Below are positions 3,268 to 22,012 of a stretch of DNA of 23,529 nt, in pieces. The notes beneath the pieces were generated by a model. The model had not been told where the DNA came from, did no database searches, and worked only from the letters and a program-made list of their open reading frames with translations. Numbering within the stretch: position 1 is the first letter of the stretch; every line of letters begins with the position of its first letter. Both the position numbers and the translations under genes were made by a program. Source of the DNA: a virus. The stretch covers positions 1 to 23,529 of the IMG/VR virus record IMGVR_UViG_3300043803_001496. One strand, 5' to 3'.

Positions 3268-3617
3268 GCTTCCTCCGCTGCGGCCACCATGGCCGCGTAT
3301 TGCGCGGAGAGCTCCGCGCGGCGCTGCCCGTACCCAAGCATTGTCGTCGTCAGCTCTGCGAGCGTGAGCTGGCGCGGCACGCCGTCGGCGTCGATGATCG
3401 CCGGCACGGCCAGCCCCAGGCCCGCGGCTTCCTTCGCGAGCACGAACGCGCCCGTGAGCAGCGTGACGTCCTCCTGACGCAGGCCCAGGCGGAAGCCGAG
3501 CACCGGCACGGTGTAGCCGGCCTCGAGCTGCTCGGCGAACCAGGCTTCCGCGGCAGCTTTTGCCGATCGCCTGTCGAGTTCAGCCGCCTTCGTCGGATTG
3601 AGCCTCATCCTGCTCAC
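3264..3617 (-). CDS. DUF4376-like tail-fibre-associated protein
   Basis: A 117-residue helical protein. I place the start at the GTG at 3617 because GGAGG lies nine bases upstream; an ATG at 3608 is the alternative. It contains KAAELDRRSAKAAAEAWFAE, then LGLRQEDVTLLTGAFVLAKE, and ends with GVPRQLTLAELTTTMLGYGQ and a Gln/Arg/Ala helix. This resembles DUF4376 domains, found in small proteins next to phage tail fibres and thought to help fibre assembly. It overlaps the end of the preceding 94-residue gene by 38 bases and hands over by ATGA to the next gene. The family match is by eye only. Confidence 0.5.
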   Translation of the reverse strand: MSRMRLNPTKAAELDRRSAKAAAEAWFAEQLEAGYTVPVLGFRLGLRQEDVTLLTGAFVLAKEAAGLGLAVPAIIDADGVPRQLTLAELTTTMLGYGQRRAELSAQYAAMVAAAEEA

Positions 3618-3864
3618 GCTGTTTCGCCTCCATGTAGCCTGCATAGCCAAGACCATAGCCATCTGGCTCCGAGAAATCACAGTCCCACGCCTCGCGGTAC
3701 TGCTGGTCGGGCAGTTCAGAATCGTCCACGTAGACGTATGGGAGTCCAGCGGGAACGTCCTTCCTAGCTATGTCGTCCAGTGACAGCGGGCAGTTGGCCG
3801 CTGGGAAAATAACCCACACTCCTGTGTCGGGAGGCGGCGCTGCATGAACAATTACGGTAGCCAT
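3580..3864 (-). CDS. Unrecognised small protein downstream of tail fibre (assembly candidate)
   Basis: A 94-residue acidic protein starting MATVIVHAAPPPDTGVWVIF at the ATG at 3864, seven bases after the fibre stop. It has an aromatic, acidic centre (VYVDDSELPDQQYREAWDCD) and a charged Gln/Glu tail. Small acidic proteins placed immediately after a fibre gene often act in fibre folding or attachment, which is the likely role here. I cannot name a family. The DNA here is less G+C rich than in the head genes and is similar to the adjoining 3' part of the fibre gene, suggesting the two have travelled together. Confidence 0.55.
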   Translation of the reverse strand: MATVIVHAAPPPDTGVWVIFPAANCPLSLDDIARKDVPAGLPYVYVDDSELPDQQYREAWDCDFSEPDGYGLGYAGYMEAKQREQDEAQSDEGG

Positions 3865-3871
3865 AATTCGC

Positions 3872-8878: not shown

Positions 8879-10711
8879 TCAGGCCGTCGCCATCCGATAG
8901 CACGCCCGCGACTCGCCCTTCGCCACGCCCCAATCGTGGTACCCGCGGACCGCGATGCCGAGCGTGTCGAAGTCGGCTTCCGCCTGCTCGACCGTCGGGG
9001 TGCGCTGCCCGTTAAGGAACACGACCTCCATCGCGTTGAGCTCGCTCGGGCTGGCGGCGAGCCACCAGGTGGTGGCGCTCGACAGGTAGAAGGAGCTCAC
9101 GATCTGGTAGCGGCCGGCGAGCACGTTGTTCGCCGTGGTGACCGTCGAACCGCCGATGAGCAGACCGCTCTGCATCAGCTTCGCCGCGGACAGCTCCAGC
9201 TCCTTCGGCACGAGCAGCACGCTCGGCGCGACCGCCAGAGGGTTGCCATCCGGGTCGGTCAACTTGGCATACGCGGTTGCCGCCGCCTCGAGCGATTCGA
9301 GCGACAGCGCGTTGCCGGCGGCGGCGGTCTTCTTGGCGAAGTAGCTCGCGTTCGACGACTCGAACTCGCTCCAGAAAACCTTGTTGAGCTTCGTCGCGGC
9401 GCCGCGGCCCAGGCGGGCCGGCACGACCGAGAGCGCGCCCAGGTCATCGTTGATCAGGTCGGTCCTCGTGATGCTCGAGAGTCGGCCGTATGTCTTCGCG
9501 CCGAAGCTCCTCGTCTCGTCGCTGGCGTCGGCGGATTTGAGCGTTCCGCCGTTGCCGACCTCCTCGAACTCGAAGCCGCCGTTGACGCGGATGCCGGTCA
9601 CGAGCTTGAAGTCCGAGACGGACCGGATCAGCGAGATGCGGTCCCACACCGACTCGACGGCGCTGAACCCCTGGAGCAGGAACTTGTTGTAGGTCGCCGA
9701 CAGCACGTTCGCGATCGCGTGGGTAGCGAACGCCGCCTTCAGCACCTGACGCAGGTTCGAGCTGTTGAGCCGGTAGCCCTCGCCGTCGTACCCGTTGGCA
9801 CGCGCGGCCTGCACGATGACCTCGGCGACCGACCCGTGGCGACGCTTGCTCGCGGCCTCCAAGGTCCGCTCGTCGAAGTGCCGCTCGACGTCCTGCAGGC
9901 CGGCGGCGAGGCAGAGCGACGCCGTGACCGTCCGCTCGTCGGTGGCCGCGGGCGCCGCCACATGGATCGCCGGCGCGGCGGGCCGCTCCGCGCGAATGTT
10001 CGCGAGGATGTCGCCGCGGATCTTCTCGAGCACCTTGGCCGCGACCGTGTCGGCGTCGATCAGCGACGCGCCGTCGCTGCCGGCGGTGACGGGGATCACG
10101 CCCACGGCGCCCGTCGCCGTGGCTTCCGAGGCGACGACGTCCTCGGGCTTGTCATGGGCTTGCGCCATGGGTTCACACTCCGTATTCGCCTCCGCGGCGA
10201 TAGCGGCGGACGTATGTGGGTCCGCTCCAAACAGGACGATCGACACCTCACGCAGCGAGCTGGCTCGCACGACAGAGATCGGGCCAGAAAACTCGCGGCC
10301 GTTTACCGTCACTTGCTCGCCGGCCGCGATGTTTTCGATGCGGCCGACGTTCGCTCCGATGCTCGCTTGGAACTGCCAGCCGGCACGCGCGAGGTCGAGC
10401 ACCTTCTGCACTTCGGGCGAGCCGCCGATGACCTCGCCTTCGACGATGAGCTCGGTGCCTGTGTTCGTGACGCTGGAAGCCTGGCCGACGGCATGATCGA
10501 CGTCGTACTCGTGGCCGAGCATGACGGCGACGGGGCCGGCGTCCTGCAGGCCGGCCAGATCGACCACGAGGGGATTGCGCGACCACGCCTGGCGAATCGC
10601 GGCGCCGGTGTAGCCGACCAGGCGAAACGTCGGCCGGCTGGCGGACTCGCCGTCGGCGGAAATCGGCGGGCAGGTGATCGTCGCCTCGGAGGCGAGCCGA
10701 AGGTCATGCAT
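8879..10711 (-). CDS. Prohead protease - major capsid protein fusion
   Basis: A 610-residue protein. Residues 30-170 are an HK97/S78-type prohead serine protease: VAVMLGHEYDVDHAVGQ carries the catalytic His at about 67, GWQFQASIGANVGRIE the Ser at about 117, and LREVSIVLFGADPHTSA closes the domain. A low-complexity, acidic and Ala-rich linker or scaffold-like stretch covers about 175-260. The rest is the capsid, with FEFEEVGNGGTL, KTYGRLSSITRTDLINDDLG and AAKLMQSGLLIGGS, resembling Mu gpT-like major head proteins. The fusion suggests self-cleavage to release mature capsid. ATG overlaps the portal stop by eight bases. Separate protease and capsid genes are more usual. Confidence 0.88.
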   Translation of the reverse strand: MHDLRLASEATITCPPISADGESASRPTFRLVGYTGAAIRQAWSRNPLVVDLAGLQDAGPVAVMLGHEYDVDHAVGQASSVTNTGTELIVEGEVIGGSPEVQKVLDLARAGWQFQASIGANVGRIENIAAGEQVTVNGREFSGPISVVRASSLREVSIVLFGADPHTSAAIAAEANTECEPMAQAHDKPEDVVASEATATGAVGVIPVTAGSDGASLIDADTVAAKVLEKIRGDILANIRAERPAAPAIHVAAPAATDERTVTASLCLAAGLQDVERHFDERTLEAASKRRHGSVAEVIVQAARANGYDGEGYRLNSSNLRQVLKAAFATHAIANVLSATYNKFLLQGFSAVESVWDRISLIRSVSDFKLVTGIRVNGGFEFEEVGNGGTLKSADASDETRSFGAKTYGRLSSITRTDLINDDLGALSVVPARLGRGAATKLNKVFWSEFESSNASYFAKKTAAAGNALSLESLEAAATAYAKLTDPDGNPLAVAPSVLLVPKELELSAAKLMQSGLLIGGSTVTTANNVLAGRYQIVSSFYLSSATTWWLAASPSELNAMEVVFLNGQRTPTVEQAEADFDTLGIAVRGYHDWGVAKGESRACYRMATA

Positions 10712-12131
10712 TGGTGTCGGCCTCCTGCGGTGACGGCTGCGGCGGTGCAGGCTGCAGGTCGATGCCGAGCTCGGCCGCGAAAGCCTGCTCCGCGGCCCGC
10801 TGCCGAAGCACCTGCCTCCAATCGCGTCCGCGGCGAGCGCACACCTCGGACAGGCTCGTCGTATGGGCCTGGAGGGAAATCTGCTCGGCAGTCGCCTCCT
10901 TGACCGGATCTACGTGTTCGTGGCCGTCCCAGGCCCACCGCCACGACCACTGGTCGCGAGGAGGGAGGCCGTCGGGTATTTGCCCGTCGATCAGCGCTGC
11001 CTCGTCGAGCCACCTTGAGAGCACCGGGTCGAGCACCACGCGCTCGAGCTCGGCACGCTCGGCGGCCAGGTGCTTGCGGTAGACGAGGTAGTCGCCGCGC
11101 ATCGTCGAGTAGTTCGCACCCGATGCGTCCATCGTGGCGACGATGTACGGCAGGTTGATCGCGCGAGCGATCTGCATGAGGATGCGACGCTCAAACGCCG
11201 AAAACGACTCCGTCGGCTGCTCGGCCTTGAGCTGATACGGTTCCCAGTTTTCCGGCGCGATCGTCATCATGCCGCGAGTGATCGGCATGGTTTCCCACGC
11301 ATCGATCGACGGCGCAGCGACGGCCTCCGGCGGAAGGGTGGTCTTGAGCACGGCGGCGAACGCGGCGGCGGTTTCGGCCGCCGTGACGACCGCGTATTGA
11401 TATCGCCGCAGCATGGCGAACAGCTCGAGGGCCGGCACGACCTCCCCGACTCCGCGAGACTGACCCGCCCGGGTCGCGTGGTACCAGTGCAGGACGGACA
11501 GGGCGTCGATCCAGCGGCCCGCCATCGTCGCGCCGAGGTTCGTCGATCCCGGGTGGTGGTCGAGCAGGTAGTACTGCGCTGGGTTGCCGTCGGCGTCGTA
11601 GCGGATTCCGTCCACCGCGCCGGCTAGGTCGATTCGCACGACCGGGTCGGCGACCATTTCAGCCTCGACGAGCCGGAGGTCGAGCTGCACCCCGCGGAGG
11701 GCCGAGTTGTTCGTCACGATCGCGAACGACTCGCCGTCGATTGCCTTCGCGATACTCATCGTCCGCAGCTTGGCGGCGAGCGCGGTTGCCTGCCCCCATT
11801 CGTAGACGTTGTCCTCGACGATGCTCACGAGCTCTTGGTCGGCGTCGGGTCCGCAGTCGAGCAGGAGCCGGGGGCCGGTGCCGACGAGGTCGGTGGCCCT
11901 CGTGTTCGTCATGCCGGCGAGGTAGCCGTTGTTCGCGGCCTCGTACCTGGCTCGCGAGCGAAGACGCTGCCGCACCGCCGGCGTCAGGGCCGAGTCCGCC
12001 GAGAGGGTGTCGGCCGCCTGCCAGTGCCTGCGGTTCAATTCCGACGTCTGCGCGGCATCGTAGCGCGCGGAGACTTCGCGCCTGGCGGTGCCAGACCTGG
12101 ACGGACCCAGGATGCGAGAGAGCAGGCCCAT
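10704..12131 (-). CDS. Portal protein, lambda type
   Basis: A 475-residue protein starting MGLLSRILGPSRSGTARREV, with the ATG at 12131 overlapping the preceding stop as TAATG. The N-terminus has YEAANNGYLAGMTNTRATDL, then VGTGPRLLLD, the signature opening of lambda-type portals. The middle includes DAWETMPITRGMMTIAPENW and EPYQLKAEQPTESFSAFERR, and later LPYIVATMDASGANYSTMRG and WRWAWDGHEHVDPVKEA, all classic for this family. Twelve copies would form the ring through which DNA enters the head. Length fits the family (about 480-550). It lies directly before the protease-capsid fusion as in lambda-like head operons. Confidence 0.93.
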   Translation of the reverse strand: MGLLSRILGPSRSGTARREVSARYDAAQTSELNRRHWQAADTLSADSALTPAVRQRLRSRARYEAANNGYLAGMTNTRATDLVGTGPRLLLDCGPDADQELVSIVEDNVYEWGQATALAAKLRTMSIAKAIDGESFAIVTNNSALRGVQLDLRLVEAEMVADPVVRIDLAGAVDGIRYDADGNPAQYYLLDHHPGSTNLGATMAGRWIDALSVLHWYHATRAGQSRGVGEVVPALELFAMLRRYQYAVVTAAETAAAFAAVLKTTLPPEAVAAPSIDAWETMPITRGMMTIAPENWEPYQLKAEQPTESFSAFERRILMQIARAINLPYIVATMDASGANYSTMRGDYLVYRKHLAAERAELERVVLDPVLSRWLDEAALIDGQIPDGLPPRDQWSWRWAWDGHEHVDPVKEATAEQISLQAHTTSLSEVCARRGRDWRQVLRQRAAEQAFAAELGIDLQPAPPQPSPQEADTNA

Positions 12132-12337
12132 TAGCCCATGGCCCCCGGGGACTCGATGCGGGCCATTCGGAGGCACGACAGCGGGTTCGTCGTCGCGCGG
12201 GCCTGCATCACGAACCGCGCGGCCTCGACCTGGCGGTCGAGCTCGTGCTGCTCTACCTCGCCGGCGTCGGTACGCGCACGACGCGGCTGCGCGAGGTTCG
12301 CAGCCACCGCATCAATGACGTCGTCGTTCGTCGGCAC
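12131..12337 (-). CDS. Small unrecognised protein before portal
   Basis: A 68-residue protein with a GTG start (VPTNDDVIDAVAANLAQPRR) and GGAG seven bases upstream. It is largely helical, with EVEQHELDRQVEAARFVMQA in the middle. The position immediately before the portal is where lambda-like phages place the small gpW head-completion protein, and the size is similar, but I see no convincing gpW motif, so this is only suggestive. Its TAA overlaps the portal ATG, giving coupled translation. The 320-base gap upstream holds the plus-strand small RNA candidate. Confidence 0.6.
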   Translation of the reverse strand: MPTNDDVIDAVAANLAQPRRARTDAGEVEQHELDRQVEAARFVMQARATTNPLSCLRMARIESPGAMG

Positions 12338-12558
12338 CGTGTCGCTCCAAGCGGGCGACTACAGTGTACCAAACTTCACCACCCGCGAGGGGGGCTACAA
12401 GAACTCGACGATAGTGCCGTCCAGGTCGTCGTCGTCGTCCTCGTCGAACACGGCGGCGACCCCCGAGGGCGTCGCTCATTGTATCCGAGGTTTGGGCGAC
12501 CCCCGGCGGGGTCGGCCGCGCGGTTTATCGGTCCGCCGCCTGCCCGCCGGGGGTCGCT

Positions 12559-12586
12559 TTGCCGTCCATCGGCACCGTGTTATGAT
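12559..12586 (+). promoter_or_regulatory. Sigma70-like promoter facing against the late operon
   Basis: TTGCCG at 12559-12564 and TATGAT at 12581-12586 with a 16-base spacer give a good plus-strand promoter. The expected start is near 12593. No plus-strand gene follows; only a terminator hairpin does. Confidence 0.5.
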
Positions 12587-12592
12587 CAAGGC

Positions 12593-12646
12593 ACGTTGCC
12601 ACCTCAACCCCGTGGGCCGCTGTAATCGGCCCGCGGGGTTTTTTCG
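12593..12646 (+). ncRNA. Candidate small RNA, antisense to the late transcript
   Basis: A transcript from the promoter at 12559-12586 would be about 50 nt long and end at the intrinsic terminator at 12606-12646. The unpaired 5' part reads GCACGUUGCCACCUCAA in RNA and includes ACCUC, which is complementary to Shine-Dalgarno-like sequences. The RNA is wholly complementary to the minus-strand message between the 47-residue gene and the portal group, so it could act in cis on head gene expression or in trans. No ORF fits within it. Confidence 0.4.
12606..12646 (+). terminator. Strong intrinsic terminator
   Basis: A 14-bp stem (12606-12619 with 12627-12640, one G-U pair) with a 7-base loop is followed by T residues; six Ts run from 12639 to 12644. 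The polarity is plus-strand only, because the minus-strand reading has As before the stem and no T-run after. Confidence 0.75.
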
Positions 12647-12657
12647 TTCACGCACGA

Positions 12658-12801
12658 TCACCTCGCGCTCATTGCTAGGCCCACGTTCGCGAGCGCGTAG
12701 CCCAACCACGCGATCGCCATGCCGCCGTCGCCTTTGCTCCACTGGTCAAACGCTACCACCGCGTAGACCATGCCCACGCACAGGATCAGCACGCTACTCA
12801 T
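12658..12801 (-). CDS. Small membrane protein with two hydrophobic segments
   Basis: A 47-residue ORF starting MSSVLILCVGMVYAVVAFDQ and ending GYALANVGLAMSAR. Two hydrophobic stretches, about residues 3-18 and 28-44, are separated by a polar DQWSKGDGG turn, so a helical hairpin in the inner membrane is likely. The start ATG at 12801 overlaps the upstream stop by eight bases and has an excellent GAGGAGG nine bases before it, which makes the gene credible despite its size. No family recognised. A holin-like role can be imagined from size and topology, but the position between terminase and portal is not usual for lysis genes. Confidence 0.7.
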   Translation of the reverse strand: MSSVLILCVGMVYAVVAFDQWSKGDGGMAIAWLGYALANVGLAMSAR

Positions 12802-13225
12802 CGTCTTCATCCTCCTCGGATTGGCTCGCCTGGTCGAGCAGCTCCAGGCCGAGGTGAACGCGGTCCGCCGTATACTCGAGGCACGACCTCAGAATGTCGG
12901 CTCGCATTGCCACTTCACCGTCGCCGGCGAGCAGCCACTGGTAGTACAGCGATTCCAACTTGCAACCGCCCTCGGGCTGCGCCCCCTCTGGGCCGCCGAG
13001 GTCTACGCGGACGTAGGGCTCGCAGCGGTCACCCAGGCGCATACACGCGATGATGCGTATGTGCTCGTGGGCGCGCGAATAGCGGCATACGTGCCACCGC
13101 TGCCAGAACTTCACCCACACCTCGAGCCTCGCGGCGTCGTCGTCTGCCGCACGACTGCGCCGCTCGGCACTGTCGTACTCGCGCTGAAAGCGGACTGCCT
13201 CCTCAAACCGCCGCGGCTCGCTCAT
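12794..13225 (-). CDS. Unrecognised protein after large terminase
   Basis: A 143-residue protein starting MSEPRRFEEAVRFQREYDSA at an ATG that overlaps the terminase stop (ATGA). It has an Arg/Glu/Asp-rich helical N-terminus, a middle with VWVKFWQRWHVCRYSRAHEH, a CRLGDRCEP-like region with several Cys and His, and a strongly acidic tail (QSEEDEDDE). Cys and His are spread rather than arranged as a clear zinc finger. It lies where small head-completion or connector genes occur, but I cannot assign a role. Translation is coupled both to the terminase gene before and to the 47-residue gene after. Confidence 0.65.
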   Translation of the reverse strand: MSEPRRFEEAVRFQREYDSAERRSRAADDDAARLEVWVKFWQRWHVCRYSRAHEHIRIIACMRLGDRCEPYVRVDLGGPEGAQPEGGCKLESLYYQWLLAGDGEVAMRADILRSCLEYTADRVHLGLELLDQASQSEEDEDDE

Positions 13226-15333
13226 CCCAATCCTCCCTGGCGACGCATAAGCTCGGCCCGTCGCGCGGCCATTTCTTCTCGTGAGATCGTGCGACGCTGC
13301 GGAGGTGGTCGCAGCTCGGCGCCCGTGGCCGATATGCCGGTGAATGAAGCGCCGGCCGCGGCGCCGACGATGCAGTCGAGCCAGTGGTTGTCGCGTCCAG
13401 GCACAAGCCGCCATTCATCGACGACGCGCTCTTTGCTCTCGACCCTCACAGGCACCTCGCTCGACAGTTGCTCGGCGAGCATCTGGTGCGAGCCGGCGTG
13501 GATCGTCAGGGACTGCGGGTCGCCGAGCGGCGTGCGGATTCTGCTCGAGACGAACGTCTTCCACGAGTTCGTGTCGAAGAGGAGGTGGCGCAGTCTGCCG
13601 ATCGTGCTGGTGCGCCAGTTGAACCCGACCCGCTCGCCCTTATCGGGTCGCTTGTCACTGAGCGTCGAGCTGGACGCACCGACGAACCGGCCGTGCGTCG
13701 GCATGATGCGCGGCCCCCACGAGCTGCGCCGACAGAAGTCCCTCACCGTGCCTTGGGTCTGCGCCCAGTTGGCGTCCACAAGCGCTTGCGAAATCCGCAG
13801 CTCCGCGGCGTCGTCCTCGCGAATGTAGACGCGGTCGAGCAGCTCCGCGGCCACGGCCTCAAGGCCGGCGAGGATCCCGGCCTCCACGCCCGCCACGCCG
13901 GCGGCCTTCGCGAGCGTCTTTCTCGCGTCTCGCAAAGTGAAATAGGTGCGTTTTTGGTCGGGGTACGTGCCATACGCGACGATGTGGCCGCGCATCTCGT
14001 GTCCCCAGGCAAGCACCGCCCAGTAGAGGAGTTTTTCCTGTACGTCGATCATCGCCGTGAGCGTGTTCAATCCGCGAGGCACGACCCACCGCGGAACCTC
14101 GATAACGTGCGAGCGGACGTCTTCCGTCGAGATCGACCGCGTCGCCGCCTCGTCGCGGAGCGGTTGTTGCTGGAACTCGCTCGCGAATACGTCCTCGCCG
14201 TCGTCGATCAGCGCGTTGTATGCGTGCTGGATCGCGCTGTGCTCCCTCTCCGGGTCGAAGCACGAGGCCCACGAGACTTGGCACCCGGCGTCCATCTGCT
14301 CCCTGTTCGCCAGGTAGTAGTCCGTCGCGGTTGCGTGGGCGCGTGCTTGGTCGCCGACGATATCCGGTGCGAATGAGCAGCGAAGCTCGCGGTACTTGTC
14401 GAGCCACATTGTTTCGTGGACTTCGGACCACTGACGCACCATCGGAATCCGCTCGCCCTGCCACGCCGGGTAGCGGGCCGTGTCAAGCAATTGATCGACC
14501 ATATCGTCGTGCTCGATCACCGTCGCATTGACGACGCACGCGATGGACGTCTGGTGACCGGCGAGCTTGAGCACGCTCTTTGTCAGAATCTCAAGCCGCG
14601 TCTCGCACTGCATCGGACTACGCGCGCTCTCGCGAGTCTGCGGGTCGTCCACGAGCACAAAATCCGGCCGGAGCTGCCGGCCGTCGGGCGACTTCCACCG
14701 CAGGCCGAGGATTGAGCCGCCGAGCCCCTTCGACATTACGATCGAGCCGGCCGCCCGCGAGCCGGCGACCGTCGGGAACACGATCGTGTCCTTTTTCCAC
14801 CCGATGTGGGTCCGCTGCCCGTTGACCGTCTGCGAGCTGCATCGCTGCGGCTTGCCCTCGAGCGCGCGTACCGGGACACACACCTCGGGGAAGTCGGCCA
14901 GGAGCAGGTCGTTGTCCGAGAGCTCCGTCTTGATCGATGTGATCGCCTTGTCGGCGAGGCTCGCTTCGGCCGCGAAAATCGCGCCGAACTTGCGATGCCC
15001 GTAGATGACCGCCCATATCAGCGACAGCTCGGAGATCGTCGATTTCGCGAAGCCCCGATACACCGCGTTGGTGAATCGCCCGCCGCGGAGCACGCAGTCC
15101 TGAATGCGTCCAATCACGCGGCGGTGGTCGTCGGAGAACGGCGATAGTCCGGTCGAGTTGGGGAAGTACTCGACCAGAAACGCAAGTAGGTCACGCTCGC
15201 ACCTGTCGCGACGAGCCTGGTCGCCGACGCCCGGTATGGCGCCGACGTCCGCCCCGCGGGCAGTGGTTGCGCGGCCCCGAGCGACAGTGCCGGCGCGGCG
15301 CCGCTCCAGCCTTTCTCGTGCCTGGTCGTTCAC
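13222..15333 (-). CDS. terL: Terminase large subunit
   Basis: A 703-residue protein. I use the GTG at 15333 because it overlaps the upstream stop as GTGA and has AAGGA nine bases before it; an in-frame ATG at 15357 is the alternative with a weaker site. Residues about 92-100 hold YRGFAKST, a variant Walker A of packaging ATPases, and about 223-232 hold PDFVLVDDPQ, Walker B. The C-terminal nuclease half includes LTAMIDVQEKLLYWAV with a likely metal-binding Asp near 430, and a late DNHWLDCIVGAAAG motif typical of large, GpA-like terminases. It packages DNA into the prohead through the portal. No small terminase is recognisable nearby. Confidence 0.93.
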   Translation of the reverse strand: MNDQARERLERRRAGTVARGRATTARGADVGAIPGVGDQARRDRCERDLLAFLVEYFPNSTGLSPFSDDHRRVIGRIQDCVLRGGRFTNAVYRGFAKSTISELSLIWAVIYGHRKFGAIFAAEASLADKAITSIKTELSDNDLLLADFPEVCVPVRALEGKPQRCSSQTVNGQRTHIGWKKDTIVFPTVAGSRAAGSIVMSKGLGGSILGLRWKSPDGRQLRPDFVLVDDPQTRESARSPMQCETRLEILTKSVLKLAGHQTSIACVVNATVIEHDDMVDQLLDTARYPAWQGERIPMVRQWSEVHETMWLDKYRELRCSFAPDIVGDQARAHATATDYYLANREQMDAGCQVSWASCFDPEREHSAIQHAYNALIDDGEDVFASEFQQQPLRDEAATRSISTEDVRSHVIEVPRWVVPRGLNTLTAMIDVQEKLLYWAVLAWGHEMRGHIVAYGTYPDQKRTYFTLRDARKTLAKAAGVAGVEAGILAGLEAVAAELLDRVYIREDDAAELRISQALVDANWAQTQGTVRDFCRRSSWGPRIMPTHGRFVGASSSTLSDKRPDKGERVGFNWRTSTIGRLRHLLFDTNSWKTFVSSRIRTPLGDPQSLTIHAGSHQMLAEQLSSEVPVRVESKERVVDEWRLVPGRDNHWLDCIVGAAAGASFTGISATGAELRPPPQRRTISREEMAARRAELMRRQGGLG

Positions 15334-15725
15334 GGCATTCCGTCCTTGCCGACCCATCCGTCGGCGACTGGGTCATGCTGCTCTGCGTACTCGCCCATGC
15401 CGTTGTGCAGCACGACCTGCCGCGCCACCTCGACCATGTGCGCGAGCGGGATGATCAGTAGCGGTTCCTCGCGATTCTTTCGCGTGTAGATGCACCACGG
15501 CCGGCCGGCGGCGTCGCGTCGCGCTTGGGTGACCCACTGCCATAGCGACGGGCGTTCGACACGCTTTACCTCGATGTGTAGGTCTGAATCGGACAGGCGG
15601 ACGTCGGGCGATTCGGGTCCGCCGGCGTATTGGACGCCGCGGCGAGCAGGCCCAAACAACGGCGTCACCTCGGCGGCGCATTCGCGCTCGCCGGCCTTTC
15701 CTTTTTCGCGGCTCATTCTCCCCAT
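15330..15725 (-). CDS. PDDEXK-type nuclease (Holliday-junction-resolvase-like)
   Basis: A 131-residue protein from the ATG at 15725; MSREKGKAGERECAAEVTPL begins at a second ATG at 15716, which has GGGGAG very close to it. The GERE glutamate, SPDVRLSDSDLHIEVKRVER with Asp and E-V-K, and a following TQARRDAAGRPWCIYTRKNR form the PDDEXK nuclease core seen in archaeal-type Hjc and phage resolvases. The likely task is cutting branched DNA before packaging, which fits its place just upstream of the large terminase. A VRR-NUC-like nuclease is an alternative. The stop overlaps the terminase GTG. Confidence 0.7.
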   Translation of the reverse strand: MGRMSREKGKAGERECAAEVTPLFGPARRGVQYAGGPESPDVRLSDSDLHIEVKRVERPSLWQWVTQARRDAAGRPWCIYTRKNREEPLLIIPLAHMVEVARQVVLHNGMGEYAEQHDPVADGWVGKDGMP

Positions 15726-21939: not shown

Positions 21940-21996
21940 TACACCCGGCAGGGCTCGAACCTGCAACCTTCGGTTCCGTAGACCGACGCTCTACCG
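21940..21996 (-). other. Partial tRNA-Arg(ACG), probable phage attachment site
   Basis: On the minus strand this holds the 3' part of a tRNA: D-stem 3' strand GAGC, anticodon stem TCGGT/ACCGA with loop CTACGGA (anticodon ACG), a 5-base variable region, T arm GCAGG-TTCGAGC-CCTGC and acceptor strand CGGGTGT plus A. The 5' acceptor strand and 5' D-stem are missing, so it is not a working tRNA. Tyrosine integrases often recombine in the 3' half of tRNA genes, and an integrase lies about 430 bp away, so an att core of about 55 bp is the best reading. Confidence 0.75.
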
Positions 21997-22012
21997 AAGT
22001 CAGGTGGGACGC

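Follow-up and report, generated by a model that had tools for sequence, protein, structure and literature searches.

A candidate small-RNA transcription unit in the variable terminase-gpW interval of a phage that very probably infects planctomycetes

Inside the minus-strand late operon of a virus record, a plus-strand promoter-like site is followed closely by a terminator-like hairpin, which raises the question of whether a small-RNA gene is carried there and, if so, on which messages such an RNA would act. The window, that is, the whole stretch of DNA analysed, is a 23.5-kb IMG/VR virus record, and its minus strand carries a lambda-type head module. Most of the 12 bacterial-genome records that hold relatives of its terminase belong to Planctomycetota or to a group within it, suggesting that the phage host is very probably a planctomycete. 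The gene between terminase and portal is presumably gpW, a name that we took from gene order, size and conservation and not from a family match. The minus-strand genes around the locus are the following.

8879-10711, minus strand: capsid gene
10704-12176, minus strand: lambda-family portal protein gene (PF05136, phrog_21)
12131-12337, minus strand: gpW-like gene in the head-tail joining position between terL and portal, assigned by position and conservation in relatives
12658-12810, minus strand: small membrane-protein cargo gene (50 aa, Shine-Dalgarno sequence GAGGAGG), its stop codon 12 nt past the terminator described below
12794-13225, minus strand: gene of unknown product
13222-15357, minus strand: terminase large subunit gene (terL, GpA nuclease family; PF20454, phrog_15/38)

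Opposite these genes, the components of a short transcription unit that an earlier note on this DNA had described were recovered, with the coordinates below.

12559-12586, plus strand: sigma-70-like promoter (TTGCCG, 16-nt spacer, TGnTATGAT as extended -10), identified by consensus match only
12593-12645, plus strand: predicted RNA of about 53 nt, with an unpaired 13-nt 5' tail (ACGUUGCCACCUC) and the terminator hairpin; its start is placed 7 nt after the -10
12606-12646, plus strand: intrinsic terminator with a perfect 14-bp stem, the 7-nt loop CUGUAAU and T6

The plus strand reads TTGCCG-16-TGTTATGAT, with TTGCCG at 12559-12564, TATGAT at 12581-12586 and TG before the -10; nine of the 12 hexamer positions match the sigma-70 consensus, and the spacer of 16 nt falls within the usual 16-18 nt. 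The stem of the hairpin (12606-12619 with 12627-12640) comprises 14 pairs, 11 of them G-C, around a loop of 7, and is followed at once by T6, in keeping with the G+C-rich stem, short loop and immediate U-run of Rho-independent terminators. Since this T-run follows the stem on the plus side only, the polarity of the terminator is plus, as had been claimed. For RNA 12593-12645 the predicted folding energy is -29.6 kcal/mol (z = -5.3 relative to shuffled sequences), and the 13-nt free tail of this RNA contains the ACCUC string to which the earlier note had drawn attention; no Rfam family scores above the gathering threshold at the candidate RNA. No plus-strand gene is served by the unit. The gap in the minus-strand operon does exist and is narrower than had been stated, the membrane-protein gene ending at 12658 and a micro-ORF starting at 12451; nor is it the only large gap, the gene list holding another of 534 bp at 3338-3871. 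An 88-codon minus-strand ORF (12476-12742) that crosses the hairpin was set aside for its poor third-position G+C, as judged by eye. Transcription by the sigma-70 RNA polymerase of the host would begin near position 12593 of the plus strand, the predicted start lying 13 nt before the stem, and would end after the hairpin at about 12645, giving an RNA of about 53 nt with a 13-nt free 5' tail. From these signals, such a plus-strand RNA is plausible.

The promoter match alone means little, since promoter-like sites occur in the window at background frequency (2 found against 1.5 expected; for TGnTAYnAT, 1 against 0.86). The pairing of promoter and terminator is a different matter. Among 5192 windows simulated with a first-order Markov model, 16 had a promoter followed by a terminator at 0-100 nt, and in two of these TG preceded the -10; a perfect stem of at least 14 pairs was likewise seen in 16 of the 5192, and a smaller simulation (n = 60) contained no promoter-terminator pair. 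These rates are optimistic in that the feature was chosen after the fact; because such pairs are rare in simulated windows, pure chance is unlikely even when the post-hoc choice is allowed for. The same figures bear on the possibility that the hairpin is a plus-strand terminator and nothing else, the promoter match being coincidental. It would then stop stray antisense transcription into the terL-side genes, or would be the leftover 3' end of a plus-strand gene on a recombined fragment. The background frequency of promoter-like sites suits this explanation, which has to account for an extended -10, for a start predicted so close before the stem and for the rarity of such pairs in simulation; moreover, no remnant of a plus-strand gene was recognised between promoter and hairpin. 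It is rather unlikely.

Under the earlier note's reading, promoter and stem should recur in related phages. The unit is present letter for letter in L003, a contig 99.97% identical to the window and thus not an independent copy. When 60 distinct terL-portal intervals were scanned for hairpins and promoters, a plus-type promoter-terminator pair was found in the window and L003 only, being absent from L004 and from about 58 other distinct intervals of relatives, and the RNA sequence itself matched in related phages only in the near-identical contig. L004 shares 95% identity with the window over 6 kb, and 99% in the portal; in the same slot it carries a small coding gene (MDGDIVTRLRRW...LLKQQ; MDGDIVTRLRRWTHAVDAAPASEVMDAAADEIDRLRRLLKQQ...) in place of the RNA unit. 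The last bases of the membrane-protein gene supply the Shine-Dalgarno sequence of that small gene, GAGGTGAT. Homologues of the membrane-protein gene, 65-72% identical, occur in L114-L116, and four further contigs with this gene lack the promoter-terminator unit. Across relatives the terL-portal interval ranges from about 250 to 4271 bp and holds differing cargo. Beyond the near-identical contig, no homologue of the module was returned by blastn against phages and plasmids, by pattern scans of IMG/VR and 84,980 genomes, or by a covariance model of sequence plus structure run on 65 sources and 199 genomes; blastn against 392 Planctomycetota genomes also found none. Two weak genome hits of the covariance model (30-32 bits, against 92 for the window) were not accepted as homologues, and a 32-nt match in the Planctomycetota genome L118 reads as a piece of coding sequence and was discounted as a chance match.

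Absence from relatives, the lack of homologues and an interval that varies with other cargo give the unit the look of a lineage-specific insert, or cargo, in a variable slot. The sole second copy is the 99.97%-identical contig, and so provides no evidence of purifying selection. What is observed is a set of sequence signals, a stable hairpin, a promoter-terminator pairing that is not random, restriction to one lineage and other cargo in the slot of a close relative; transcription of the unit and all of its function we infer. The most likely reading of these real signals appears to be a short lineage-specific phage RNA gene, and we put at roughly 45% the probability that the variable terminase-gpW slot of this planctomycete phage holds, as cargo, a self-contained small-RNA transcription unit. 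The lack of conservation of the hairpin unit in relatives would also suit the terminator-only explanation, and the exchange of the block for an unrelated gene in L004 means that it may be a recombinational remnant. If the unit is transcribed, it would represent a phage small RNA in Planctomycetota, of which a limited literature search found no example, and a case in which a non-coding cargo gene and coding cargo replace each other at a single site.

Two repeats were noted in the same interval. Positions 12563-12580, in the spacer region of the candidate promoter, share 16 of 18 bases with 12325-12342 at the start of gpW, possibly a mark left by the recombination through which the block arrived. 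In addition, GCGACCCCCG occurs in three exact copies within 102 bp (12456-12557) and nowhere else in the window in exact form; next to the candidate promoter, two of them form an inverted repeat of 15 bp without mismatch (12496-12510/12543-12557), and two of the three are retained in L004.

Alternatively, the hairpin could serve the minus-strand mRNA, by stabilising the 3' end of the membrane-protein cistron or guiding its processing, with the plus-strand signals incidental. It does form in the minus-strand RNA (-32.4 kcal/mol in a 68-nt context), 17 nt past the stop codon of that cistron. The U-run, however, lies on the plus side and no minus-strand U-tract follows the stem, so that it is no minus-strand terminator, and no similar hairpin was found there in relatives; we consider this reading very unlikely.

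Whether the candidate RNA would act in cis on the head genes depends on where the head-gene message begins, and here two further features of the minus strand are relevant.

12363-12379, minus strand: promoter- or operator-like element GTGAAGTTTGGTACACT (consensus GTGAACAnTGGTACACT) upstream of gpW
12395-12451, minus strand: acidic micro-ORF VFDEDDDDDLDGTIVEFL just upstream of gpW, with TACAAT before it (12483-12478) and a hairpin-forming leader

Lambda OOP (77 nt) is a short phage RNA with its own promoter that opposes an operon and has an intrinsic terminator at its end, and the candidate is alike in these respects. By analogy, the RNA would pair with read-through mRNA of the terminase operon, in the stretch separating the membrane-protein gene from the head genes, and lead to its cleavage, or its promoter would interfere with oncoming polymerase; either way head-gene expression from terL-side transcripts would be lowered. 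The RNA is exactly antisense to an intercistronic region of the minus-strand operon, and an opposing message is the target of the antisense phage RNAs OOP and sar (PMC12197685). Nevertheless, the candidate RNA, flanked by the membrane-protein stop codon (12658) and the beginning of the micro-ORF (12451), overlaps no coding sequence, start codon or Shine-Dalgarno sequence; both strands of the overlap form the same strong hairpin, for which slower pairing is expected. Moreover, the earlier note's proposal of action on the head-gene message runs up against the conserved promoter-like element of the gpW-portal-capsid operon (12379-12363), which lies about 220 bp downstream of the RNA locus on the minus strand and would bypass the RNA. 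A gpW mRNA with the predicted start at about 12356 would have no complement of 12593-12645, and only read-through from the terL side would have one. Two traits of the OOP/sar type are absent from the candidate, namely conservation among related phages and an overlap with the coding sequence or ribosome-binding site of the regulated gene. OOP is antisense to cII and general in lambdoid phages; the candidate, in contrast, overlaps no gene and lacks conservation among relatives. The small RNA sar of P22 (68/69 nt) likewise opposes a phage operon, but it prevents initiation of translation by pairing with ant mRNA, whereas the candidate covers no ribosome-binding site. Cis control of the head genes is thus doubtful and disfavoured, and the OOP-like mechanism as a whole is quite unlikely.

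If the RNA has a function, the likeliest would be base-pairing in trans of its tail, through the anti-Shine-Dalgarno-like ACCUC, with purine-rich ribosome-binding sites. Against 26 phage start regions, several of them with guessed start positions, the tail gave a mean duplex energy slightly better than that of shuffled tails (equalled in 0.75% of shuffles), which fits its anti-Shine-Dalgarno-like composition. No individual target among the 26 was significant after correction, the best being equalled in 7.5% of shuffles. The ribosome-binding site of the integrase gene (-18 kcal/mol) was dropped as a target when its significance was lost on correction, and the ORF start used for it is probably wrong, the integrase profile matching only from position 178. 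A trans role of the tail is possible. The more specific proposal is highly improbable, namely that the tail of a 53-nt RNA mimics the 16S anti-Shine-Dalgarno sequence and, by masking the ribosome-binding sites of numerous phage or host messages, represses them together, as interchangeable non-coding cargo in a planctomycete phage.

The earlier note knew of no such system described, yet phage-encoded RNAs of about 50-80 nt that act in cis or in trans are an established class, including OOP, sar, DicF, VpdS and AsxR (PMC12197685). In size and in possible trans base-pairing the candidate resembles DicF (53 nt), VpdS (~50 nt) and AsxR/EcOnc02 (~54 nt); these have demonstrated targets in proteobacterial hosts, whereas the candidate has no confidently predicted target and no Rfam match. 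A precedent for lineage-specific phage antisense RNAs is PAK_P4as15, which is missing from a related phage (PMC12197685); unlike the candidate, it is ~550 nt long, associated with the endolysin gene and experimentally detected.

The gpW-upstream element is a better lead than the candidate RNA. In aligned gpW upstream regions (L003-L100), GTGAACAnTGGTACACT is present in 51 of 52 distinct relatives, among which gpW identity falls to about 52%, and gpW starts about 30-55 nt downstream of it. Every locus with TGGTACACT has exactly one copy, and 66 of the 82 loci with an exact TGAACANTGGTACACT (two of them bacterial-genome loci from another search) encode gpW just downstream. From sequence and position, the element resembles a promoter of the extended -10 type with an overlapping dyad, GTGAAC-N4-GTACAC. 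The near-invariance of GTGAACAnTGGTACACT ahead of the head operon across such divergent planctomycete phages (51 of 52) suggests shared late-gene control. Acidic micro-ORFs, most ending in [VI]EFL, occupy the same place as that of the window in 22 of the 52 relatives.

The general dyad GTGWAC-N4-GTWCAC is found in most of the longer related phage records (L126-L143, G397-G413), with up to four sites each, against 0-1 per record, and almost none overall, for the reversed control pattern. Some sites carry TTGAC 16 nt upstream of TACAnT (L130, L132, L141), and one (L132:2347) lies between integrase and a small gene. The dyad is possibly the operator of a shared phage regulator. Host LexA was considered as the binding protein and rejected, one exact site being found in five host-side genomes; a scan of 392 genomes returned only scattered sites and no phylum-wide host box, which makes a phylum-wide SOS box unlikely, while the true host may differ.

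Two minor observations concern other structures. In a more distant relative (L019, just upstream of the gpW position, and L020:1-60), a sense-strand hairpin with T7, preceded by a promoter-like stretch, stands directly before the ribosome-binding site of a small pre-portal gene (GGGGGTCGCGTCGTGACAGACGCGGCCCCCTTTTTTT); attenuation or insulation of the head genes is a possible role. In the window itself, the minus strand at 21940-22000 has an Rfam tRNA match of 33.3 bits, above gathering and not called by ARAGORN, about 0.4 kb from the integrase gene, which is possibly a tRNA fragment linked to an attachment site.
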